A stretch of DNA of 20,762 bases from IMG/VR virus record IMGVR_UViG_3300044961_000955, positions 1 through 20,762 of that record. One strand, written 5' to 3'. The position numbers and the translations under genes are program-made. The notes under the pieces are model-generated. The model had not been told where the DNA came from, ran no database searches, and saw nothing but the letters and a program-made list of their open reading frames with translations. Source of the stretch: a virus. Below, piece by piece: positions 4,165-17,086 of the stretch (positions are counted from its first letter, which is position 1; each line of letters opens with the position of its first letter).

Positions 4165-4773
4165 TCACACAGTTGGGGTCACGGCGTGCTCGCGGCGGCG
4201 ATGGCCGGGCTTGTCATCGAGGACGAGACGCTCGGGGCGCTCGAGCTGGCGAGGTCCGCTGCGGCGCAAGTACTGGTAGCACGCGTCGCAGCGGCCGGCC
4301 TTGGTCGCCACCGAGTAGACCTCGAACCGCTCGCAGTTCACGCAGCCGGGCGCCTCCGGGCGAGCCGGCGGGCGCTGGTCGTGGGGGACGTAGACCGCTC
4401 GGGCTCGGGCGGCGACCGCTGCACGCAGCACGTGCGCAGCCTGCTCGAGGGCTCGGATCATGGCCCGGGCGCCGTCGCCGACGGGGTCGAACGTGATCGA
4501 CGACGTTGCCGGCGGCTTGCCGTCGGGGCCGACGTCGAGCGGGGTGCCTTCGCGATCGGTGCCGGGCGACAGCATCGCGGCGATGCGCTCGCCGGCGGGG
4601 TCGGTCGAGTAGGAGCGGCTGCCCTCCATGAGCGTCGCCGTCGGGTAGCCGTCCCAGCGCACCGGGATCGACGCGCGCTCGGCGACCGCCTCGGCGTCGT
4701 CGAGCGCTGCAAGTAGCCGAGCGAGCTCGTCGAGCGCAGCGGCGGCACGGCGGCCGAGTCGGCTGGGTGTCAC
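4165..4773 (-). CDS. Zinc-ribbon phage protein, function unknown
   Basis: A 202-residue protein from the GTG at 4773, which overlaps the WhiB-like gene's TGA (GTGA). The N-terminal 125 residues are Ala-rich and helical (ALDELARLLAALDDAEAVAE, then ARAMIRALEQAAHVLRAAVA), with a Gly/Pro-rich loop region at about 40-100. A zinc ribbon follows, with C144-x2-C147 and C162-x2-C165 (APGCVNCERF, GRCDACYQYLRR). The tail of about 30 residues is basic (ERPERLVLDD, then RRREH). Such ribbons bind nucleic acid or protein partners. I do not recognise a named family. Co-transcription with integrase and WhiB suggests an early or regulatory gene, which is inference. Confidence 0.8.
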   Translation of the reverse strand: MTPSRLGRRAAAALDELARLLAALDDAEAVAERASIPVRWDGYPTATLMEGSRSYSTDPAGERIAAMLSPGTDREGTPLDVGPDGKPPATSSITFDPVGDGARAMIRALEQAAHVLRAAVAARARAVYVPHDQRPPARPEAPGCVNCERFEVYSVATKAGRCDACYQYLRRSGPRQLERPERLVLDDKPGHRRREHAVTPTV

Positions 4774-4991
4774 GCGTTTCTCCGCAGGCGTTGCACAAGG
4801 ATCTGGCGTCGCCGCTCAGCCGGTGTGGTGCCGGCCCAGACGCCGCTGTGGTCCGCCAGCGCCTCCCGACGGAAAGCGAGCTCGAGGCACGGGCCGCGCA
4901 GCTCGCACGTCGCGCAGATCGCCTTGGCCGCAGCGATATTGGCGGCCCGAGACGAGAAGAACAGCTCGCCACGACCGTGGCAGGGGGTCAC
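4770..4991 (-). CDS. WhiB-like transcription factor (small phage type)
   Basis: WhiB-family proteins bind a [4Fe-4S] cluster through four cysteines and regulate transcription with the principal sigma factor. They are confined to actinobacteria and their phages. This 73-residue protein has C4, C26, C29 and C35 in the C-x21-C-x2-C-x5-C pattern (CHGRGELFFSS, then ICATCELRGPC) and the turn GVWAG at 50-54, a variant of the family's G[VI]WGG, followed by a basic C-terminus (ERRRQILVQRLRR). The GTG start at 4991 overlaps the integrase TGA (GTGA), so translation is probably coupled. Phage WhiB proteins such as TM4 WhiB can block host WhiB function and cause superinfection exclusion; whether this one does is unknown. 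Confidence 0.93.
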   Translation of the reverse strand: MTPCHGRGELFFSSRAANIAAAKAICATCELRGPCLELAFRREALADHSGVWAGTTPAERRRQILVQRLRRNA

Positions 4992-5986
4992 GCCGAAGAA
5001 CGTACCGAGCGACGGGTGCGTGCTTCGTCTTTCGCACCAGTGTGACGCGACGTGCCACCACGTTGGTTGACGACGGCGGCGACGGCGAGGGACGGGGCAC
5101 GGTGCAGGCGGGTGCGGGCGCGGTCGTAGCGCATGGTGGTGTCGGTCGAGGTGTGGCCCATGGCGATCTGCACGTCGTAGATCTGGGCGCCTGCGTCGAG
5201 CGCGAGCGTGGCGAAGGTGTGGCGGAGCGCGTGCGGGTGCAGCCCGGGGATCTGCGCCTGGCGGCCGAGGCGGCGCACGATCGCGTAGGCGGTGCGCGTC
5301 TGGAGGTGCTGCTGCTCGATGACGGGCTTGGCGGTTTCGGCGGCGTGGAGCAGCAGCGGGCCGCGCTGGCGGGCGCCCACGTGCGCTTCGATCGCCCGCA
5401 TCACGATGTCCGGAAGCACCGCGATGCCGTGGCGGCCGCCCTTGCGCGTGGGCAGGTCGAGGACGCGCACGCCGGCGTCTTGGCCAAGGTCCTCGATTGC
5501 TGCAGCGCAGGTCTCACCGACGCGCAACCCGAGCGTGGCCAGCATCAGTACCAGCAGGTGCTCGAGCGTGCCGACCTCGCGTGCGACGTCGACGAGGCGC
5601 TGCAGCTGCTCACCGGACAGGGCCATGGTCGTCGACTCGTTGACGCGCGGCGGCCGTCGGATCCGGGCGAACGGGTTGCGCTCGACCAGGCCCTCGTCGA
5701 CCAGCCACGAGTACCACTGGGAGACCACGGCGATGTGGTGGCGGATGGTGGCCGGCTTCCGAGCTGACCGCTCGAGCTGGCGAGTCCAAGCGTCGGCGTG
5801 GTGGCGCTCCGCGGTCAGCGGGTCCAGCGACCGCAGCGCGCACCATTCGACCCAGGCCGCCAGCACGGTGCGGTAGTTCCGCCGGGTGTTCTCGACGCCG
5901 TAGCCGCCGACGAACAGGTCCACCGCTCGGCCCGTCTCCACGCCCCCACCGTGCCATGCCCCGGCAAGGCCACACCCTGCCATCAC
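4988..5986 (-). CDS. int: Tyrosine recombinase / phage integrase (first copy)
   Basis: Tyrosine recombinases integrate and excise phage DNA through a covalent 3'-phosphotyrosine. The 332-residue product has an N-terminal SAM-like core-binding domain (about 20-105: DLFVGGYGVENTRRNYR, then WYSWLVDEGLVERNPF) and a complete catalytic domain: R155 (LGLRVGE), K182 (TRKGGRHG), H252 and R255 (HPHALRHTFAT), H278 (MGHTSTDTT) and nucleophile Y287 (MRYDRAR). The GTG at 5986 is chosen because a TAGTTT box lies six bases upstream, the spacing of a leaderless transcript. ATG 5983 and GTG 5941 (behind a G-rich stretch) are alternatives. It is the first gene of a unit with WhiB. The last 35 residues are basic and probably disordered. 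No attachment site could be identified. Confidence 0.95.
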   Translation of the reverse strand: MMAGCGLAGAWHGGGVETGRAVDLFVGGYGVENTRRNYRTVLAAWVEWCALRSLDPLTAERHHADAWTRQLERSARKPATIRHHIAVVSQWYSWLVDEGLVERNPFARIRRPPRVNESTTMALSGEQLQRLVDVAREVGTLEHLLVLMLATLGLRVGETCAAAIEDLGQDAGVRVLDLPTRKGGRHGIAVLPDIVMRAIEAHVGARQRGPLLLHAAETAKPVIEQQHLQTRTAYAIVRRLGRQAQIPGLHPHALRHTFATLALDAGAQIYDVQIAMGHTSTDTTMRYDRARTRLHRAPSLAVAAVVNQRGGTSRHTGAKDEARTRRSVRSSA

Positions 5987-8939: not shown

Positions 8940-9210
8940 ACCGTCGGGTATCAGCAACGCCCTGGTCAGCGGCTGCGCCGTTGAGCCCCAGTAGCCATCC
9001 GAGGGGGGCCCCGGTCGCCACCGCAATGCGCCTCATCGCCTCGAGCGACGGGACAGTTCGGTCGTTCTCCCACGAGCTGACCGTGTTCCGGTGAGCACCG
9101 ATCCTCGCCGCGAGATCCTCGACCCGTCGCATCCCTGCGGTCTTGCGCGCCTTGGTGATGCGATCGCCGATGGTCCATGCCAGATCCATGGCTGCCATGT
9201 CTACCATCAT
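8887..9210 (-). CDS. Xre-family helix-turn-helix repressor
   Basis: A 107-residue cI/Cro-like regulator. Residues 10-70 form an HTH_3 domain: DRITKARKTAGM (helix 1), VEDLAARIGAH (helix 2), RNTVSSWENDRTVPS (recognition helix and the typical 'W--, --P' turn), LEAMRRIAVATGAPLGWLL (helices 4-5). The C-terminal 35 residues are short and variable, with no LexA-like peptidase domain. It diverges from the tyrosine recombinase at 9381, the classic position of an immunity repressor. The first of two ATG codons (9210, 9207) is taken; ATG 9198 is also possible. No ribosome binding site is evident, so translation may be leaderless. Confidence 0.88.
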   Translation of the reverse strand: MMVDMAAMDLAWTIGDRITKARKTAGMRRVEDLAARIGAHRNTVSSWENDRTVPSLEAMRRIAVATGAPLGWLLGLNGAAADQGVADTRRYERHVAADAVEPEALAS

Positions 9211-9380
9211 CGCACACTTACAAACGCATGACTAGGGGGACAGAGGCCGAAGTTACTCGGCGTCGGGCCTTGACAGGCGCGCGAGCGCATCCGCCTCCCG
9301 CTCATCGGCGCCGCCGCCTGACCGACCGAGCCGGCGTTTCTTCCGGTAGCCCGTTGACGGGCTGTCCAACATCGGCCAAC
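9211..9380. promoter_or_regulatory. Divergent control region between Xre repressor and recombinase
   Basis: About 170 bp lie between the divergent repressor and recombinase genes. On plus, TTGACA occurs at 9270-9275 but without a convincing -10 at 17 bases. A perfect inverted repeat, AGCCCG-TTGA-CGGGCT, lies at 9348-9363 just before the recombinase start and could be an operator or a small hairpin. The recombinase frame is open through this region from 9177, so part of it could be coding if an earlier start is used. Confidence 0.4.
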
Positions 9381-10376
9381 GTGCCCCGCCACACGAGACA
9401 CCGGCGGCCTCCGGTCCTCGACCTGTCGCAACCCGACGTGGAGGTCGCACGCGCCGTGAAGCTGTCACTTGCGCTCACCGCTTACCTGTTCGCCCATGCC
9501 GCCATGTGGGCACCCCGGACCAGGGTCGCCTATCGCGAACGGCTGATGCTGTTCGCTGCGAGCGCCGGGCCCGACATCGAGATCGGGGACCTCACCGCGA
9601 ACCACGTCCGCAGTTGGCTCGGCACCGACCGGCGCCCCAAGACGGTTCGGAAGTACCTGTCCACGGTGCGGGGCCTCGCTCGCTGGCTGGTCGCCGAAGG
9701 CCACCTCCAACACGACTTCTGCGCCGGCGTCAGGGCACCACGCCGGCCGGCACCGCTCCCTCGCGCCCTGCGCGCCGAACAGGTCGCCGCACTTCTCGCC
9801 GCCGCCCCGCCACGAGAGCGGGTTGCGATCATCGTGCTCGCGCAGACGGGCCTGCGTGTCGGCGAGCTCGTCGAGGCACGCTGGGAACACGTGGACCCCT
9901 ACGACCGCACCCTTCGCGTCAGGGGCAAGGGGTCACGCGACCGGGTCGTCGGGATCCCGGAGGAAGCGTGGCAGGCGCTTGAGCAGTGGTGCGGGATCCG
10001 CACTTGGGGACCGATCATTGCGCGCCACGACGATCCGACGTTGCCGTTGCGGTCCCTCGGGCACGCGTTGGCAGCGATCGGGCGGCGCGCCGGTGTCCAT
10101 CGGGCTGCGTGGGACGGCCAGGGCACCGCCCACTCCCTGCGGCACACCGCGGCGACCGACGTGCTGCGCAGCGGCGCCAACGTGAAGGTCGTCCAGCAAC
10201 TCCTCGGTCACGCCGATCTCGCCACAACGTCGCGCTACCTGGCGACGCTGCCCGGCGACGTGGCGCGAGCCCAAGAGGGCCGTTGGTACGGCCGGCCTGT
10301 GGTGGCCGAGGGCGGCCGGGCGGCCTCCCGGATCGCCCCCGGCCACGACAACGATCGGCACGACCTGGCGTCGTGA
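9381..10376 (+). CDS. Tyrosine recombinase, XerC/D-like (second copy)
   Basis: A second full-length tyrosine recombinase, about 331 residues from the GTG at 9381. The N-terminal core-binding domain spans about 25-115 (AYLFAHAAMWAPRTRVAYRE, then KYLSTVRGLARWLVAEGHL). The catalytic domain is complete: R159 (TGLRVGEL), K183 (RGKGSRDRVV), H251 and R254 (AHSLRHTAAT), H277 (LLGHADLATTSRY) and Y286. The GKGSRDR turn and the 'LGHADLATTSRY' motif are typical of Xer-type enzymes. GTG 9438 is an alternative start; an ATG at 9228 would leave almost no promoter space and adds a low-complexity Arg/Pro-rich extension. It is unrelated in detail to the integrase at 4988-5986 and could serve multimer resolution or a separate integration event. 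Confidence 0.93.
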   Translation: MPRHTRHRRPPVLDLSQPDVEVARAVKLSLALTAYLFAHAAMWAPRTRVAYRERLMLFAASAGPDIEIGDLTANHVRSWLGTDRRPKTVRKYLSTVRGLARWLVAEGHLQHDFCAGVRAPRRPAPLPRALRAEQVAALLAAAPPRERVAIIVLAQTGLRVGELVEARWEHVDPYDRTLRVRGKGSRDRVVGIPEEAWQALEQWCGIRTWGPIIARHDDPTLPLRSLGHALAAIGRRAGVHRAAWDGQGTAHSLRHTAATDVLRSGANVKVVQQLLGHADLATTSRYLATLPGDVARAQEGRWYGRPVVAEGGRAASRIAPGHDNDRHDLAS

Positions 10377-10449: not shown

Positions 10450-11508
10450 TCAACAGGCGGTGCTGGAAGTTGTGGCGACCCATCCTGTGTCGGTCCTTCC
10501 CGCCGCGCCGGTCTGCTCGAGCTGGGCGAGCCAGCGGCGTACGGAGCTTTCGGGGCGGTCAGAGCGCTTGGCGATCTGGCCTTGGCTGAGAGGTTCGTCG
10601 GCCCAGGCGAGGGTGAGCCAGATCCACTGTGGGCCGTCACCGAGAGCGGCGACGGCGGGTGGTGTGACGATGCGGGGGGTGCCACGGGGCCCGGCCAGTC
10701 CTATGCAGCCCGGATCGGTCGGTGGCACCCCCTGTGGCACCCCCTGTGGCACCCCCTGTGGCACCCCCGTGGCACCCCCCCGTCTGGCCACGATCCGTGA
10801 AACTCCGCCGACGGTCAGCTGGTAGCACTGACCTTCCACGGGTCGGGCCATGCGGTCGGTCAGCACGAAGCAGCGGCCGGGGTGCGACGGGTCGAGGAGG
10901 TGGGCTGGCGCTTCCTTCGACCGGTCACCGAACACGAGGCGCGTGGCCGCAGCGTCGGCAAGGCGAAGCGCGACGCGGTTCGGGAGGTTCACGACCATGC
11001 TGCGCGGGATGGCGCTGTCGGTGGGGTGCTGATCGGCGACGACCAGCACCATCGACACCTTCCGCCAGTTCTTCGCAGCGTGTTCGAGCGCAGCGCGCAG
11101 GTCGAAGCGCTTCCCGAGGTCGGCGATGGTGGAGCTCGTCTCGTCCTGCACGACAAGCAGCAGCGGGTGGCCGTGGTCGGGGCCGAGCACGTCGACACCA
11201 GCGGTGCGGTAGGTGGCGATGCGCCGCTCGTACTCGGCGCCGAGCCACTGCCACGTGTCGACGAGCTCGGCCTTCGTCGACGCGTACCGGTCGCACAGCG
11301 GCGCGACCGTTGCGAGGCCTCCGGGTGGGTCGCACACGACGGCGCGCGCGACGTCGGCGTGTTGAGCGCCGACACCGGCGGCAAGGGTACGCAGGAGAAC
11401 AGTTTTCCCCGACCCGGTGGTGCCGGCCACGAGCGTGTGCGTGCGCAACGGCAGCGTGATGGCGCGGCCGTGCTCGTCTTGGGCGAAAGGCACGTCACGC
11501 GCTGGCAT
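10450..11508 (-). CDS. FtsK/SpoIIIE/TraB-type DNA translocase ATPase
   Basis: A 352-residue P-loop ATPase. Walker A is GTTGSGKT at 29-36, Walker B HPLLLVVQDE at 114-123, followed by the sensor segment MVLVVADQHPTDSAI and the FtsK/TraB signature NLPNRVALRLADAAATRLVFGD (about 174-195). These are features of FtsK/SpoIIIE motors and of the TraB/TraSA proteins that move double-stranded DNA in mycelial conjugation of actinomycete plasmids and AICEs. Residues 248-262 are a GVPQ repeat linker; residues 293-346 form a winged helix (SQGQIAKRSDRPESSVRRWLAQLEQTG) that could read DNA as FtsK-gamma does. It lacks its own membrane segments, but the adjacent upstream gene encodes a two-helix membrane protein. 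The ATG at 11508 follows GAGGA and overlaps that gene by 14 bases. Confidence 0.88.
   Translation of the reverse strand: MPARDVPFAQDEHGRAITLPLRTHTLVAGTTGSGKTVLLRTLAAGVGAQHADVARAVVCDPPGGLATVAPLCDRYASTKAELVDTWQWLGAEYERRIATYRTAGVDVLGPDHGHPLLLVVQDETSSTIADLGKRFDLRAALEHAAKNWRKVSMVLVVADQHPTDSAIPRSMVVNLPNRVALRLADAAATRLVFGDRSKEAPAHLLDPSHPGRCFVLTDRMARPVEGQCYQLTVGGVSRIVARRGGATGVPQGVPQGVPQGVPPTDPGCIGLAGPRGTPRIVTPPAVAALGDGPQWIWLTLAWADEPLSQGQIAKRSDRPESSVRRWLAQLEQTGAAGRTDTGWVATTSSTAC
10722..10780. repeat. Tandem 12-bp repeat inside the translocase gene
   Basis: GTGGCACCCCCT is repeated at 10722, 10734 and 10746, followed by GTGGCACCCCC at 10758 (one base short) and a fifth partial copy at 10769. On the coding strand it gives the GVPQ linker. 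The minus strand shows runs of five or more G every 12 bases, so G-quadruplex formation is possible. The array also resembles the clustered short repeats that TraB proteins recognise near or in their own genes. Confidence 0.85.
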
Positions 11509-12427
11509 CGAGGTCCTCGTCGACGAACGGCGGCTCGGCCGATGCCGTGGGGAACGGGTCGCCGTAGTTGAAGAACAGGCCGGCACGGTTGCCGGGCCGG
11601 CCGCCGACGTCGACGACGAGCGCGCCAGCGTGGTGGGGCAGATGGAAATAGGAGCGAAGCCCGGCGAGCAGCGCGTCGTCGAGCAGGCCCGGGTGGCCGC
11701 CGCCGGGCCACTCGACCTCAAGGGTGACACCGCGGGCGGTGCGGCCACCGTCGAGGACACGGGGCATCGGTGGGAGCACGCGATCGCCGTGCTTCACCCG
11801 CCACGACGCTTCGATCGCGGCGTGCAGCATGCGTTGCGCTTCGCTCGCCGCGCCACGGCGAGCCCAGTCCACCTTGCGGGCGTCCCAAGTGCGGGTGGCG
11901 TGCTCGTGCTGCATCACCGGGAGCAGGTCGGCGAGACCGGCAAGCCGGTTGGCCAACTGGGGGAGCTCGTCACGCCACCGGCGTCGGGTGAACAGGACCG
12001 TGATTGCTGTGAGCGTGCACTCGAGCTCCCACTCACGGCGCAGCCACCACCGGGCCCGCAGGCGTTGGGCAAGCCGGCTCGCGAGCAGATCCACGAACAT
12101 GGCGAGCAGCACAACCATGGTGGCCACCGAGGCGACGATGCCGCAGCGCAACGCGACGCCATGGTCGACGCCGAACCACCACAGCACGCCAGCGAGACCG
12201 ACCCCGACGACGAGCACGCAGAACAAAACCAACCCCCACGCGAACGCGAGGAGCCGGGCGATGTACCGGGGAAGGTCAGCCCGTCCGTCAGCGGCGTCGA
12301 CCGCGAGCGGCCACAGCCACCACGCCCACGCGTCCCACCTGTCCCCGCGCTGCGGTCTACGCCTTGCGAGGTACTCGCTTGGCCGCGTCCCCTGACCCTG
12401 GCGCTTCCCACTCGACGGGGAACTCAC
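11495..12427 (-). CDS. Two-helix membrane protein paired with the translocase
   Basis: About 310 residues from the GTG at 12427 (GTG 12484 is the alternative; both overlap the end of the HTH gene). A Trp-rich segment (WDAWAWWLWPL, about 31-41) is followed by two transmembrane helices: about 57-86 (AFAWGLVLFCVLVVGVGLAG) and about 91-115 (GIVASVATMVVLLAMFVDLLA). A cytoplasmic domain of about 195 residues has many charged helices (RWRDELPQLANRLAGLADLL) and a final LEVEWPGGGHPGLL...GALVVDVGG segment. The family is unknown. The overlap with the FtsK/TraB-like gene suggests a membrane anchor or partner for the ATPase, as SpdB-type proteins are for TraB in actinomycete elements; that is inference from context. 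Confidence 0.75.
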   Translation of the reverse strand: MSSPSSGKRQGQGTRPSEYLARRRPQRGDRWDAWAWWLWPLAVDAADGRADLPRYIARLLAFAWGLVLFCVLVVGVGLAGVLWWFGVDHGVALRCGIVASVATMVVLLAMFVDLLASRLAQRLRARWWLRREWELECTLTAITVLFTRRRWRDELPQLANRLAGLADLLPVMQHEHATRTWDARKVDWARRGAASEAQRMLHAAIEASWRVKHGDRVLPPMPRVLDGGRTARGVTLEVEWPGGGHPGLLDDALLAGLRSYFHLPHHAGALVVDVGGRPGNRAGLFFNYGDPFPTASAEPPFVDEDLDASA

Positions 12428-12611
12428 GACCCACCTCGCGACACCACGCAACCACGGCGGCCGTGAAGTACAGGCCACGCCCATCGATCGAACGCGGAAA
12501 CGCAGCGTTCCGCTTCGTCCACGCCGACTTGCGCCACGAGCGCACCGTCTCGGTGCTGACGCCCAAGCCGACCGCGATCTCGCTCATCGTGAGCACCGGT
12601 TCGGCGGGCAC
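12357..12611 (-). CDS. Small helix-turn-helix regulator, MerR/excisionase-like
   Basis: An 84-residue protein from the GTG at 12611, with ATG 12587 as the alternative. Residues 8-35 form a helix-turn-helix (TMSEIAVGLGVSTETVRSWRK), followed by a wing with aromatic residues (AAFPRSIDGRGLYFTAAVVAWC), as in excisionases and MerR-type winged-helix domains. The C-terminus is basic. A TAGGAT box ends eight bases before the GTG, which suggests a leaderless transcript. It faces three small plus-strand genes across a control region with inverted CTACCCG sites, so it probably regulates both directions, and perhaps excision. The stop is within the start region of the membrane-protein gene, implying one unit with the translocase. 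Confidence 0.82.
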   Translation of the reverse strand: MPAEPVLTMSEIAVGLGVSTETVRSWRKSAWTKRNAAFPRSIDGRGLYFTAAVVAWCREVGREFPVEWEAPGSGDAAKRVPRKA

Positions 12612-12619
12612 GGGCCGTG

Positions 12620-12695
12620 ATCCTAACCAGCGGGTAGGTGGTCGCCCTGTCCATGCAATCGATCCTACCGCCTACCCGGTAGCCGGTGTTAGCGT
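12620..12695. promoter_or_regulatory. Divergent leaderless promoters with paired operators
   Basis: On minus, TAGGAT (12625-12620) lies eight bases before the HTH gene's GTG. On plus, TAGCGT (12690-12695) lies seven bases before the ATG at 12703. Both match TANNNT at the spacing of leaderless transcripts. Upstream of each box is the same motif in opposite orientation: CGGGTAGGTGG at 12631-12641 and CCGCCTACCCG at 12668-12678 (one mismatch). The right copy is part of a 21-bp near-palindrome at 12667-12687 (ACCGcCTACCcGGTAGcCGGT). This looks like a shared operator of a divergent switch. Confidence 0.68.
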
Positions 12696-12702
12696 CGTGG
12701 CC

Positions 12703-13020
12703 ATGACCGACACCATGACAAACGGCAACGGTACGACGAGCACGGCAGCGGGCGCAGTGACACGCGCGGCGTACGTCGAGGCCTTGGACACGGCCGTGAG
12801 CGGGCAGCGCGACGTGGCCGATGCGACGGACGTGCTCGACGCCGTGCGCACGCTGTTGCGCATGACCGCGGAGCAGCGCGCGCTCGTGGAGCAGCTCGTG
12901 AGCGATGGCCTCGCGCTTGGTGTGGAGCGCGCGGATGACGAGATCACCCGTGCGCGCAGTGTGCACGGCCTCACTGCGGCGCGTCGCAGCGAGCAGCACC
13001 GCGGCAAGGGCAAGCGATGA
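12703..13020 (+). CDS. Small helical protein, first gene of plus-strand trio
   Basis: A 105-residue protein from the ATG at 12703, apparently leaderless (TAGCGT box seven bases upstream). After a Thr/Gly-rich start the rest is charged and helical: AAYVEALDTAVSGQRDVADA, then RTLLRMTAEQRALVEQLV and GVERADDEITRARSVHGL, with a basic tail ending GKGKR. Acidic helices and a basic tail suggest a small oligomeric or nucleic-acid-associated protein, but no family is recognised. Its TGA overlaps the next ATG (ATGA). It is divergent from the HTH regulator and presumably controlled by it. Confidence 0.75.
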   Translation: MTDTMTNGNGTTSTAAGAVTRAAYVEALDTAVSGQRDVADATDVLDAVRTLLRMTAEQRALVEQLVSDGLALGVERADDEITRARSVHGLTAARRSEQHRGKGKR

Positions 13021-13247
13021 CCGCGCGTTATGCCGTGCGGCGGCTGCGCGTTGTGGGCTGCGCTGATCTCGCACGTGCGGTCACGCGGTCTTATGCACCG
13101 GGGTGGCAGCCGAGTGACCGGCCCGTCACGGCGGCCGACTGTCTGACGATCCTCATCAGCGCGAGGGCCGCTGGGGTCGGCACGGTGGCCACGCCCGGCG
13201 AGGTGTTGGCGTGGTGCGAGTTCCACGGGTCGCGGCGGCCGAGGTGA
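13017..13247 (+). CDS. Small hypothetical protein, second gene of plus-strand trio
   Basis: A 76-residue protein whose ATG at 13017 overlaps the preceding TGA (ATGA) and whose own stop overlaps the next GTG (GTGA). The sequence is basic at the N-terminus (RYAVRRLRVVGCADLARAV) and continues with ADCLTILISARAAGVGTV, then GEVLAWCEFH. The Trp-Cys and Phe-His pairs near the end and the three cysteines are the only distinctive points. No domain is recognised. Coupling on both sides supports it as a true gene of this small operon. Confidence 0.7.
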   Translation: MTARYAVRRLRVVGCADLARAVTRSYAPGWQPSDRPVTAADCLTILISARAAGVGTVATPGEVLAWCEFHGSRRPR

Positions 13248-13579
13248 GTGACGCAGCGAGCCGGGCCACTGCGGCGACCACGGTGGCGGCCGGGGTGCTG
13301 AAGACGACGATCTGGGCGTCAGCGGCGGTGATCATGCTGACCATCGCCATCCGATTCGTGTGGCCCGACCCACCATCGCGCCACGTGACAATCGCGGCTG
13401 ACGTCGCCGGCGTGCCCGCTGCCCAGGGCGAGGACGTCGAGCGGCCACCGGCGGCTGCCCCAGCAAGCTCACGGCGACGGCTCGCCGCACCGGTCATCGC
13501 GCCACGCCCCACGATCGAGTGCCGCGACGAGTCTGCGTTCGCGCCGGCGCTGGCCGGCGTCGACGTGGTGTGCCGGTAG
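13244..13579 (+). CDS. Single-pass membrane protein, third gene of plus-strand trio
   Basis: A 111-residue protein from the GTG at 13244, which overlaps the preceding TGA (GTGA). A single transmembrane helix lies at about 20-40 (TIWASAAVIMLTIAIRFVW), preceded by an Ala-rich stretch and followed by a variable Pro/Ala/Arg-rich segment with two cysteines near the end (IECRDES, then VDVVCR). The product may be anchored with its C-terminal part outside the cell. It converges on the lipoprotein gene, leaving about 60 bases between the stops. The function is unknown; small membrane proteins next to TraB-like genes often take part in plasmid spread or entry exclusion, which is only a suggestion here. 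Confidence 0.7.
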   Translation: MSDAASRATAATTVAAGVLKTTIWASAAVIMLTIAIRFVWPDPPSRHVTIAADVAGVPAAQGEDVERPPAAAPASSRRRLAAPVIAPRPTIECRDESAFAPALAGVDVVCR

Positions 13580-13640: not shown

Positions 13641-14609
13641 TCAGCCTGCGAGGTTGATGGTCCAGTCGCCGTCGGCGCGAATCACGACCAGGCTCGGCCC
13701 CTTGAACGGTCGACGACCGCTGTACGGACCGATCTCGTTGACCACGAGGTCGGCGAAGCTCGCGCCGGTGGGGTAGTTGCTGACGATGAAGTTGCTGGAC
13801 CCGCTGTGGTTGATCGCGGCGACGCCGTTCGGGCCCGTGTACGCGAGGACGGAGTCGCCGCGGCCCTGGGTGATCGGGTTGAAGGCCAGCACTGCGCTGA
13901 CCGCGTTGACCTGCACGGACCAGTCGCCGTCGGCCTTGACGTCGAGCATTGTCGTGCGCTGGTTCGAGCGGAAGTCGAGGGCCACGGTGCCGTCGTAGGC
14001 GCCGATGGTGTTCACGAGCAGGTCCACCCGTCCGCCGCTGGCGTCGAGACCCGTCACGATGAAGTTGCGGGTGCCGTTGTGGGTGAACCTGACGACTGCT
14101 CGGTCCTCGGGGCGGCCGGTGGGCTTCGCGATGGCTACGACGTTGTCCCCGCGGCCCTGGGTGACGAACGGGAGGGGCGGTGCTGTGGGGGCCGCGGTGG
14201 GCGGAGCCGTGGCGACGGCGCCAGGCGCCGAGGCGGGAGGAGCCGTGGCCTCGGTCGGTGGCGGCGCTGCGGGCGTGGACTCCACTGGCACGGACGCCGG
14301 GGGTGGCGGAGCCGCTGTCGCGGTCGGCGCAGGAGCTGCGGTCGTCGGGGGAGCCACGGCTCGGGCGGTGGTCGCCGACGTCGCTCGCGGTGCGGCCGTC
14401 GTGGCTGCCGTCGTGGCGGCCGAGGTGGTTGCGACCGTCGTCGTCGGTGACGGTGTCGTGGGGGCCGTGGTCACAGGTTCCGGTTTTGCCATCGTCGGCG
14501 CGGTCGTGGTCGCGGCAACCTGCGCGACGGTCGTCGTTGCGACGGTGCTCGATGCGCCGCCACACCCTGCAGCGATCAGAAGGGCGAACGCCAGGAGGTT
14601 GCGCTTCAT
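13641..14609 (-). CDS. Secreted lipoprotein with two repeat beta-domains (probable moron)
   Basis: From the ATG at 14609 the 322-residue protein begins with a lipoprotein signal, MKRNLLAFALLIAAGC, with the lipidated Cys at 16. A linker of about 125 residues, almost wholly Thr, Ala and Pro, follows and probably spans the cell wall. Two homologous domains end the protein (about 150-234 and 247-321), each running TQGRGD-V-A...G...NFIV...DLLVN-IG-Y-G...ADGDW. The domain resembles repeats in extracellular proteins of high-GC actinobacteria. CAGAAT seven bases before the ATG may be the -10 of a leaderless transcript, and the gene stands alone between two terminator-like regions. That is typical of a moron expressed from the prophage; surface change or superinfection exclusion is possible. 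Confidence 0.85.
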   Translation of the reverse strand: MKRNLLAFALLIAAGCGGASSTVATTTVAQVAATTTAPTMAKPEPVTTAPTTPSPTTTVATTSAATTAATTAAPRATSATTARAVAPPTTAAPAPTATAAPPPPASVPVESTPAAPPPTEATAPPASAPGAVATAPPTAAPTAPPLPFVTQGRGDNVVAIAKPTGRPEDRAVVRFTHNGTRNFIVTGLDASGGRVDLLVNTIGAYDGTVALDFRSNQRTTMLDVKADGDWSVQVNAVSAVLAFNPITQGRGDSVLAYTGPNGVAAINHSGSSNFIVSNYPTGASFADLVVNEIGPYSGRRPFKGPSLVVIRADGDWTINLAG

Positions 14610-14810: not shown

Positions 14811-15179
14811 TCAGCCGGCGCGTACTTGCAGGTCGGCGGAACCGAGGTCCTGGACGAGGCCGCCGAGGGTGCCTCGCACCCTGATCGCCCACAGGCCGGC
14901 GCCGAGCGAGGCGAGGTGGGCGGCGGTGATCGTGCAGGTCACGTTGTAGGGCTTGGCGGAGCCGTCGGGGACGGTGGTGGTGCCGTCGGTGCACGTGATG
15001 CCAGATGTGATGGTGACGAGGACGGCACCGCCGAAGGTCGCGAGCTCGATGGAGGGCGCGGTGACGGCGGCGAGGTTGCGCAGTCCTTCGTGGTCCGACG
15101 TGCGCGGGATCGCGAGGTGGATCGTGGCGCTGGTGCCGAGGGTGAGCTCGATTGCTGTGGGGTCGAGATCGTGGCTCAT
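14811..15179 (-). CDS. Virion-associated beta-rich protein, last late gene
   Basis: A 122-residue protein starting with an ATG that overlaps the TGA of the repeat protein (ATGA). It reads as a compact beta-sandwich: TAIELTLGTSATIHLAIPRT, GGAVLVTITSGITCTDGTT, YNVTCTITAAHLASLGAGLW, AIRVRGTLGGLVQDLGSADLQV. The pair of cysteines (about 80 and 97) might form a disulfide or be buried. Alternating strands and the 'W-IRV-GT' ending resemble small immunoglobulin-like or baseplate decoration modules of phage tails. No specific family is claimed. It closes the late operon before the hairpin terminator. Confidence 0.8.
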   Translation of the reverse strand: MSHDLDPTAIELTLGTSATIHLAIPRTSDHEGLRNLAAVTAPSIELATFGGAVLVTITSGITCTDGTTTVPDGSAKPYNVTCTITAAHLASLGAGLWAIRVRGTLGGLVQDLGSADLQVRAG

Positions 15180-17086
15180 GGGCGCCCTTCCGTCCAGGTG
15201 CGTGGGCTGCGGCCGGTGGCGTGGGTGACGTCCGGGCGCGTGGTGGCGGCCGTGGCGGGTGCCCGTGCCGCTGCGGTAGTGCGTGGTGCTCGGCCGGCGG
15301 CCCAGGTGCGGGCGACGCGTGCGAGAACCCAGCGGACGACCACGCCGAGCTGTGCGAGCAGACCGGTTGCGATGTCGGTGACGCCGAGATCGTCGGTGAC
15401 GGCGCGCGCGATGGCGCGCCGATCGGTGGCCGTGTCGTCGAGGCCGAGGGTGTCGACAACGGCCCGAGCGGCGGTGGCTGTGCGATCGGCTGCGTCGACG
15501 ACGCCGAGCTGCTCAGCGATCTGTCGTGCGGACGCGAGCGAGAGTGCGTCGTCGTCGTCGAGGTCGAGGTTGTCGGCGACACTGCGGGCCACCGTGGCGG
15601 TGCGGGTCGTGTCGTCGGTGATGCCGAGTGTGTCGGTGACGGCGCGTACGAAAGACGAGATGAGCGAGGCCACCGCGACGTCGACGAGGTCGAGTGTGTC
15701 GGCGACGCTGCGGGCCGCCGTGGCGGTGCGGGTCGCGACGTCGACGAGGTCGAGTGTGTCGGCGACACTGCGGGCCGCCGTGGCGGTGCGGGTCGCGACG
15801 TCGACGAGGCCGAGGGTGTCGGCGACGCTGCGGGCCGCCGTGGCGGTGCGGGTCGCGGCGTCGACGAGGCCGAGGGTGTCGGCGACGCTGCGGGCCGCCG
15901 TGGCGGTGCGGGCCGCGGCGTCGACCAGGCCCAGGGTGTCGGCGACACTGCGGGCGGCATCGGCGGTGCGGGTCGTGTCGTCGGTGATGCCGAGTGTGTC
16001 GGCGACGCTGCGGGCCGCCGCCGCGGTGCGGGTCGCGACGTCGACCAGGCCCAGGGTGTCGGCCACGGAACGGGCTGCGACAGCCGTACGTGTCGCTGCG
16101 TCGACCAGGCCGAGGGTGTCGGCCACGGCACGGGCCGCGACAGCCGTACGTGTCGCTGCGTCGACCAGGCCGAGGGTGTCGGCCACGGAACGGGCCGCGA
16201 CAGCCGTACGTGTCGCTGCGTCGACCAGGCCGAGGGTGTCGGCGGGTGAGCGGCGGTACGCCTCGGTCGAGGTCAGCGCGTCGACCAGGCCGAGGGTGTC
16301 GGCGGCGGAACGGGCAGCCACCGAAGTGCGCGTCGCGGCGTCGGTGAGCCCGAGCGCGTCGGTTAGTGCGCGCGAGAACGCCGAGCCGCCGGCGGCGGCG
16401 TCGTCGTCGACGCCGACCAACCCCATCGGAGCCGCCAGAAGCGACACGATGTCGGCGGTGGTCAGTGCCCGACCCCACATGGCCTGCCACGCGATCGCCA
16501 CGTTCGTGTGCGTGTTCGCCGTGTAGTAGCCGTGCAGGATCTGCGACGTCGTGCCGTACAGGACCGACGACGCCACGTTGGTCGAGTTGACGATCTCGGT
16601 GAGGCCGGCGTAGGCGATGACACGGGCGCCGGTGTGCACGAGGGTGAGCAGCACGGGCACGCCGTCGGACAGCGCGTACGACGACGCCACCTCGGTGTAA
16701 GAGCCCAGGCTGTTCTTGTTCCAGTTCACGACGATCTGCGTCGAGGCGTTGCAGTACGCAGTGAGACAGGCGAACGGGTCGCTGTTGTTGTTCGTGGCGC
16801 CGACGCCGATCAGCTGCGCGCCCGTCGGGACAGTGCCGTTACGCGCGACCCAGGCAGCCACCGTGAACGGGGGCTGCAGCCGCAGTCGCACGTCGCCCGA
16901 GCCGAAGTCGTAGTACGCACCCGAACCGGTGCCACCGGTGTTGATGTGGCCGACGAGGTCACCGACGGCACGGATCGCACAGTTGCCGGGGTTCGCCACC
17001 GTGCCGCGACGCCCCCCGACGACATCGGCGAACGACCCCACCGACTCGGTGACCCACAGCGCGACAAGCCCCTCGCCGAGGCTCAC
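15176..17086 (-). CDS. LamG-type tail protein with seventeen 20-residue repeats
   Basis: A 636-residue protein from the GTG at 17086, three bases after the previous stop. Residues 1-225 form a concanavalin-like (LamG) sugar-binding module: GLVALWVTESVGSFADVVG, FTVAAWVARNGTVPTGAQLIG, LLTLVHTGARVIAYAGL, and NVAIAWQAMWGRALTTADI. Residues 239-578 are about 17 tandem units of 20 residues with consensus RSVADTLGLVDAATRTATAA; one unit has 22. The last 55 residues are Arg/Ala/Thr-rich. LamG modules occur in tail fibres and receptor-binding proteins, so this is probably a host-recognition or decoration protein with a repetitive stalk. Whether the repeats form a helical or beta-solenoid rod is unknown. 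Confidence 0.87.
   Translation of the reverse strand: MSLGEGLVALWVTESVGSFADVVGGRRGTVANPGNCAIRAVGDLVGHINTGGTGSGAYYDFGSGDVRLRLQPPFTVAAWVARNGTVPTGAQLIGVGATNNNSDPFACLTAYCNASTQIVVNWNKNSLGSYTEVASSYALSDGVPVLLTLVHTGARVIAYAGLTEIVNSTNVASSVLYGTTSQILHGYYTANTHTNVAIAWQAMWGRALTTADIVSLLAAPMGLVGVDDDAAAGGSAFSRALTDALGLTDAATRTSVAARSAADTLGLVDALTSTEAYRRSPADTLGLVDAATRTAVAARSVADTLGLVDAATRTAVAARAVADTLGLVDAATRTAVAARSVADTLGLVDVATRTAAAARSVADTLGITDDTTRTADAARSVADTLGLVDAAARTATAARSVADTLGLVDAATRTATAARSVADTLGLVDVATRTATAARSVADTLDLVDVATRTATAARSVADTLDLVDVAVASLISSFVRAVTDTLGITDDTTRTATVARSVADNLDLDDDDALSLASARQIAEQLGVVDAADRTATAARAVVDTLGLDDTATDRRAIARAVTDDLGVTDIATGLLAQLGVVVRWVLARVARTWAAGRAPRTTAAARAPATAATTRPDVTHATGRSPRTWTEGRP
15353..16372 (-). 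repeat. 60-bp tandem coding repeats (about 17 units)
   Basis: The stretch encodes residues 239-578 of the LamG protein. Neighbouring 60-bp units between about 15660 and 16320 are nearly identical at the DNA level, while the outer units are more diverged. That gradient is what repeated slippage or unequal recombination in the middle of an array produces, so repeat number may vary between phages. Confidence 0.9.

Follow-up and report, generated by a model that had tools for sequence, protein, structure and literature searches.

Described systems and the locus under study

In conjugative plasmids of Streptomyces, TraB binds clt loci, which are built as arrays of repeats. The array of pJV1 consists of nine 9-bp repeats, that of pWTY27 has 7-bp repeats in a clt that overlaps the 3′ end of traA, and the winged helix of pSVH1 TraB reads 8-bp repeats (PMC3583192; PMC12857230). 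TraB-type proteins carry their transmembrane (TM) segments at the N-terminus of the motor chain, two of them in TraA of pWTY27 (PMC3583192). Actinomycete integrative and conjugative elements (AICEs) are defined by the presence of Int, Tra and Rep (PMC3218068). Here a module with a motor of this kind is described from the IMG/VR virus record IMGVR_UViG_3300044961_000955, a linear sequence of 20,762 bases (71% GC, probably a fragment), called the window below. The record is an actinobacterial phage, probably a temperate one. On the minus strand within 10450-12611, three overlapping genes encode a helix-turn-helix (HTH) protein, a two-TM protein and an FtsK/TraB-type ATPase, and the ATPase gene contains an array of iterons. 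We read the module as a two-subunit, membrane-anchored double-stranded DNA (dsDNA) translocase of the FtsK/TraB kind, which would load on its own iterons and move phage DNA across a septum or membrane, and we give this reading a probability of about 45%. FtsK-like motors in phages were already known, and phage TraB is present in databases, though under another name; the split arrangement of motor and membrane part and the intragenic iterons are new.

The module shares with pIJ101-type TraB, including that of the Woodruffvirus phages TP1604, YDN12 and Xkcd426, an FtsK-type motor, a similar C-terminal winged helix, an actinobacterial host and a repeat array close to the motor gene. However, the identity is at most 28%, the repeats are placed within the gene, the module has no spd genes that could be recognised, and the motor and the TM protein are separate genes, whereas TraB is a single chain with an N-terminal membrane region. 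With TraSA of AICEs of the pSAM2 type it has in common a short Tra with an FtsK domain, encoded close to a tyrosine integrase gene and an HTH gene of the excisionase-like type, and the tree tests given below do not reject a clade with TraSA. A TraSA-like protein from the comparison set (L007) has a hydrophobic N-terminus of its own, whereas the membrane part is split off in the window.

The earlier note on this DNA, made from the sequence alone, had called the module AICE-like, which is not supported in the strict sense. Int (PF00589, 2.2e-30) and a Tra with an FtsK_SpoIIIE domain are present, but Rep was not found in the fragment: Prim-Pol was searched without a match, and DUF3631 was not found either, though its control also gave no signal. 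Furthermore, unlike an AICE, the element carries terminase and tail genes.

Other FtsK-like proteins resemble the ATPase in part. The phage FtsK-like translocases of phrog_1358 (LittleE gp198, Bacillus SPO1-like proteins, PK5.2 gp22) share the motor and often lie near integration or repressor genes. In the clearest of them, unlike in the window, motor and alpha-type domain form one fused protein, and neither a TM partner nor an iteron array could be found. Chromosomal FtsK/SpoIIIE agrees in motor fold, winged helix and the role of the membrane part; FtsK, however, fuses membrane part, alpha domain and motor, and the lysine of its DPK motif is a proline in the window ATPase. TcpA of the Clostridium plasmid pCW3 is likewise an FtsK-like conjugation ATPase of similar fold. 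TcpA works together with a relaxase and type IV secretion system proteins, and no proteins of this kind were found in the window.

Domains and modelled fold of the ATPase

The ATPase gene (minus strand, 10450-11508, ATG at 11508, stop at 10450) encodes 352 aa. The 436-aa open reading frame (ORF) at 10450-11760 in the program-made list is merely a 5′ extension of it. The product matched the Pfam family FtsK_SpoIIIE (PF01580; 1.1e-10, 41.7 bits against a cut-off of 24), which places it in the motor superfamily, and phrog_1358 in PHROGs, annotated as 'FtsK/SpoIIIE-like' (2.1e-16). The Walker A (GTTGSGKT, aa 29-36) and Walker B (LLLVVQDE, aa 116-123) motifs are retained, as are conserved R, Q and N columns. 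At the C-terminus, a winged helix of the HTH_IclR type occupies about residues 307-345 (4.6e-5, above the cut-off). The chain itself contains no TM segment (best hydropathy 1.04), and the TMs sit in the overlapping upstream gene.

A structure was modelled with AF2 from an alignment with 34 phage relatives. The core (residues 1-245) was mostly above 90 in predicted local distance difference test (pLDDT) score, and the linker (247-306) was of low confidence. The modelled ATPase was nearest to the FtsK motor (Foldseek 3.9e-14, Z 26.9), followed by TcpA (Z 26.0) and EccC (25), with HerA and VirB4 near Z 18-20. A32-like packaging ATPases ranked far below FtsK, at only about 1e-7 in BFVD. Because the model alignment consisted of FtsK relatives, the agreement with FtsK in fold was to be expected, and the profile matches are the independent part of this evidence. 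Judged from its domains and modelled fold, the ATPase is a member of the FtsK-type dsDNA motor family with a winged helix and not a clear packaging ATPase. The earlier identification as such a motor is borne out, and the clustering with packaging ATPases that the earlier note had named as refuting its reading was not seen.

Relatives and phylogenetic placement

Relatives of the ATPase are distant. In isolate phages and plasmids the best match reached about 32% identity over part of the length, and the 309 viral-contig relatives obtained from IMG/VR by a narrow motif scan were at most 35% identical. No relative was returned when the ATPase, the two-TM protein and the large terminase (TerL) were each scanned singly against viral and genome contigs, nor by a pattern alignment of the ATPase with an artificial partner in a narrow genome scan. 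A GC-rich Walker A pattern gave two matches, both unrelated.

In maximum-likelihood trees, the ATPase pairs with a 655-aa TraB-like protein (L010; plasmid_TraB 3.2e-11) from a contig that encodes a terminase (support 97/92), and the pair stands beside TraB with weak support (77/67). The contig of L010 is GC-rich and viral; its TraB-like protein (17-1984) also has a C-terminal winged helix, and the terminase (4276-5769) follows 2.3 kb downstream. Approximately unbiased (AU) tests do not reject a grouping of the ATPase with TraB (p 0.23-0.27) and with TraSA (0.15-0.23), reject EccC (0.012) and PK5.2-type phage FtsK (0.014), and leave ordinary FtsK at the borderline (p 0.058). The winged helix aligned to that of Woodruffvirus TraB (Xkcd426) with a score of 44 against 24.6 ± 4.7 for shuffled sequences (1/500 shuffles). 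The NCBIfam model plasmid_TraB gave 21.3 bits against a cut-off of 800, a value that does not discriminate, as a plasmid TraB (L003) had no match at all and the L007 Tra reached 35.9. Taken together, the sequence comparisons weakly favour calling the ATPase TraB-like, not proven TraB.

Iteron array inside the ATPase gene

Between the parts of the gene that code for the motor and the winged helix lie all six perfect copies of the 11-mer GGGGGTGCCAC, within 105 bp (10675-10779). Five copies are direct on the minus strand, at 10722, 10734, 10746, 10758 and 10769 (steps of 12, 12, 12 and 11 bp), and one is inverted at 10675-10685, where the inverted match extends to 16 bp. The earlier note had overlooked this array, as well as a 12-nt inverted repeat in the divergent region described below. 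With up to one mismatch, there are 8 matches against 1.36 expected; the largest number in 100 shuffles was 4, and none of the 100 reached the observed count. When synonymous codons were permuted within the ATPase gene, no 11-mer occurred more than 4 times in 2000 trials, against the 6 observed, and an inverted match of at least 16 bp arose in 2 of 1000 permutations. No other 300-bp stretch of the window reached six copies of any 10-mer. The comparisons with permuted codons and with other regions indicate that selection or copying acts on the DNA and not only on the linker peptide. By analogy, the array fits the clt sites of Streptomyces conjugative plasmids and is a candidate clt or loading site.

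The iterons might have another use than loading the motor: they could serve the integrase as arm-type sites, the HTH protein as operators or replication as iterons, or simply be a slipped coding repeat. We consider this unlikely, yet serious. The array lies 300-400 bp from the integrase stop, the HTH gene is in the same operon as the ATPase, and four copies encode a GVPQ linker repeat, which makes tandem expansion plausible. However, the copies occupy three reading frames (GGAT, GVPQ and GTP), one of them lying in another frame and one inverted in a third, and the 16-bp inverted match is rare among permutations, as given above; moreover, the HTH promoter region has no perfect copy of GGGGGTGCCAC. 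In addition, recombinases of the XerC type and of this length are not known to carry an arm-binding domain.

Membrane partner, HTH gene and opposite operon

The earlier note had described an ATPase with a winged helix, a two-TM gene, an HTH gene and an opposite set of three genes ending with a single-pass protein; all of these are present, and the overlaps on the minus strand were confirmed. The membrane gene (minus strand, 11495-12427) encodes 310 aa from GTG 12427, or 329 aa from ATG 12484. Its stop at 11495 lies within the downstream ATPase gene (overlap 14 nt), and it overlaps the HTH gene by 71 or 128 nt, depending on which of the two starts is used. Hydrophobic segments at residues 54 and 89 (GTG form) are followed by a helical region and a C-terminal strand-helix-strand segment. 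An AF2 model from the single sequence reached pLDDT 60, too poor for a fold search. That the pair is a split TraB/FtsK is inferred from the order and overlap of the genes and from the parts missing in the ATPase.

The HTH protein (84 aa, MerR/excisionase-like; minus strand, 12357-12611) is encoded by the first gene of the operon and, from its sequence, is likely a regulator. Its matches to excisionase-type and related HTH families are all weak (phrog_66 2.6e-4; HTH_17 0.007; TIGR01764 13.3 bits, below the cut-off of 28.8).

A divergent promoter region of 91 bp (12612-12702) separates the two operons and contains a 12-nt inverted repeat, a candidate operator, with arms at 12631-12642 (CGGGTAGGTGGT) and 12667-12678 (ACCGCCTACCCG). 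The opposite operon on the plus strand consists of g1 (105 aa, 12703-13020, no family), g2 (76 aa, 13017-13247, no known function, phrog_2036 0.011) and g3 (111 aa, 13244-13579), a single-pass protein with its TM at residue 14, most likely starting at GTG 13244. The three genes are coupled through ATGA and GTGA overlaps, and in the GTGA overlap the g3 start lies over the g2 stop.

Proposed mechanism and its alternatives

The two-subunit translocase reading is built on FtsK-motor family membership, the modelled fold, the winged helix, the gene overlap, the two TMs and the non-random iterons. In it, the ATPase would form a ring motor, presumably a hexamer, and the GGGGGTGCCAC iterons in its own gene may act in cis like a clt, as the site on which the C-terminal winged helix loads it. 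Anchoring of the ring to the membrane or septum would fall to the two-TM protein of the overlapping gene, a task for which TraB and FtsK use their own N-terminus. The genome of the phage, in the form of excised or replicating dsDNA, could then be driven by the motor through a division septum, a cross-wall or a cell contact, and phage DNA would in this way spread or be partitioned within host cells or from one to another with no virion involved.

Several points weigh against this reading. Two near-invariant motor residues are changed in the ATPase (K62 to P and T159 to D), and its position in the trees depends on long branches and weak forks. The membrane partner is an orphan, having no match in Pfam, PHROGs, PADLOC, NCBIfam, phages or viral contigs. 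Its C-terminus was considered as an FtsK alpha domain, which it resembles by eye, and as a TraB pre-motor region; neither was significant in profile comparison. None of the 3′ regions of 94 other P-loop ORFs has six copies of a 10-mer, the highest number being 3. Integrase, regulator or replication proteins could bind the iterons instead.

Conjugative transfer of phage DNA is possible. The clt-like iterons and the true TraB homologues of Streptomyces phages raise its credibility, which is lowered by the fact that those TraB phages have no integrases and that at least one is virulent; for the latter reasons, TraB in a phage need not mean a life cycle like that of an integrative and conjugative element. 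In a bolder form, which we regard as improbable, a temperate actinobacteriophage would have divided a TraB-like pump over two genes, with the cis-acting loading site in the motor gene, and its naked genome would spread from one hyphal compartment or cell to another as a conjugative plasmid does, besides the production of virions. If phages do move unpackaged dsDNA by the motor of a conjugative plasmid, the boundary between phage and conjugative element would blur, and the spread of infection through the actinobacterial mycelium, which is divided by cross-walls, would gain a testable mechanism. The window supplies a concrete candidate cis site and a two-gene motor for this question, and TP1604, YDN12 and Xkcd426, isolated on S. 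griseus, provide a system for asking it now.

Alternatively, the motor may serve segregation or dimer resolution, positioning replicated or excised phage DNA at the septum and switching on Xer-like recombination in the way that FtsK activates XerCD. The ATPase has an FtsK-type winged helix, the phage encodes two Xer-like recombinases (4.2e-44 and 1.9e-33), one of them convergent with the motor gene, and in other phages, too, FtsK genes are found close to those for integration (PK5.2, LittleE beside its recombination directionality factor (RDF) gene, and five contigs with a serine recombinase). However, most tyrosine integrases match Xer models, and the TraB of Woodruffvirus exists without integrases. 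We judge this explanation unlikely.

A general helper of replication or genome processing in the lytic cycle, without transfer or segregation across a membrane, seems less probable still. Phage FtsK-like genes are indeed widespread, and a replication role was proposed by the authors who described the virulent phage Geonosis (PMC11536984). Against it, the coupled two-TM gene suggests a place at the membrane, and the module adjoins an integrase and is divergent from another operon for a membrane protein.

It is very doubtful that the module is defence or superinfection-exclusion cargo, although it occupies the usual cargo site between the tail genes and the integrase and small orphan genes lie on the opposite strand. 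PADLOC reported mad8 (1.4e-13, N-terminal part only) and SspH (2.2e-11) as well as mad1 for the HTH protein (1.7e-5), but these matches are all to generic FtsK/HerA or HTH domains. Among eight window proteins (the module and two recombinases), the mad1-mad8 set of MADS was represented by a partial mad8 and by weak mad1/mad3 matches on two. Family searches of the module found no nuclease, methyltransferase or other effector, and in fold the ATPase resembles FtsK (Z 26.9) more than HerA/DndH (about 20). A role as a further virion ATPase, for packaging or ejection, is hardly credible. The A32/P9-like packaging ATPases do have the HerA-FtsK fold, but this phage encodes a large terminase of its own (phrog_9, 1.2e-61), FtsK, TcpA and EccC are the structures closest to the model, and the module lies outside the head genes.

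TraB and FtsK motors in other phages

The earlier statement that FtsK-like motors are unusual in temperate phages was wrong. FtsK-like genes are common in phages, PHROGs contains several FtsK families, IMG/VR holds the 309 relatives mentioned above, and the temperate Geobacillus phage PK5.2 has an FtsK gene (gp22) between its lysis and integration genes. In the Omegavirus LittleE, the FtsK-like gene (gp198) adjoins the RDF gene. Five contigs (L023, L025, L056, L083 and L086) encode a short phage FtsK of 227-245 aa, and in all five a serine recombinase lies within about 2 kb. As a general rule the integrase neighbourhood does not hold: a tyrosine recombinase was present in 6 of 44 records and a serine recombinase in 12 of 44, so it applies to a part only.

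From their sequences, isolated Streptomyces phages of the genus Woodruffvirus carry true pIJ101-type TraB. Used as a query, the plasmid TraB L003, to which pIJ101 TraB is 53% identical, retrieved genes annotated as 'FtsK-like DNA translocase' from Streptomyces phages, TP1604 and YDN12 among them (51% over 82%), and phage proteins of this type fall among plasmid TraB proteins in the tree. The records of these phages yielded neither a tyrosine recombinase nor a large serine recombinase. Geonosis, a relative of these phages, was reported to be virulent, and a role in replication was proposed for its FtsK-like protein (PMC11536984).

The 340 bp upstream of phage traB were compared between one group (L187, L188 and L191-L197) and its sister group (L198-L200 and L203). 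In the first group, this non-coding region contains GGAACG 4-6 times and in one direction only, against about 0.2-0.5 expected. The sister group (L198, L199 and L203) has GTGACGG at positions homologous to GGAACGG, and its winged-helix sequence differs too. Because the change is concerted at several sites, a binding protein that changed alongside the repeats is suggested. The upstream repeats are candidates for a clt or an operator, perhaps co-changing with the TraB winged helix; they support the view that phage TraB-type motors bring their own cis sites, and an operator for traB is equally possible. An AGGGGGT core occurs both in the repeats of the window and upstream of traB in TP1604, but it was dismissed, as the TP1604 copies are arms of terminator-like hairpins and are not conserved.

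Phage context of the module

Along the minus strand, the gene order is tail, a small lipoprotein-like gene, the module, integrase, repressor, second recombinase and terminase; an HNH gene and an XRE repressor-like gene are also present, and the tail-type genes lie at the right. The nearest isolate relative of the large terminase (minus strand, 747-2546) is that of Streptomyces phage Samy (42.6% over 90%). In 42 records with TerL relatives, mostly fragments, there was no homologue of the two-TM protein and no FtsK above the cut-off. A WhiB-like regulator at 4770-4991 (minus strand) is an actinobacterial hallmark.

Two Xer-like tyrosine recombinases occur in one phage fragment, at 4988-5986 on the minus strand (1.9e-33) and at 9177-10376 on the plus strand. 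The latter is the integrase (XerC-like, 4.2e-44), convergent with the ATPase gene. Its SAM-like domain starts at residue 112, and because the first roughly 100 residues have no match, the true start is probably later. Adjoining the module, 13641-14609 (minus strand) encodes a threonine/proline-rich protein with a lipobox-like start (MKRNLLAFALLIAAGCGG), a possible phage-encoded lipoprotein that could be an exclusion factor. The gene at 15176-17086 (minus strand) encodes a LamG-like domain together with about twelve repeats of 20 aa, of the type RSVADTLGLVDAATRTATAA, specified by a 60-bp tandem repeat at 15553-16343, and its product is possibly a tail fibre or surface protein.

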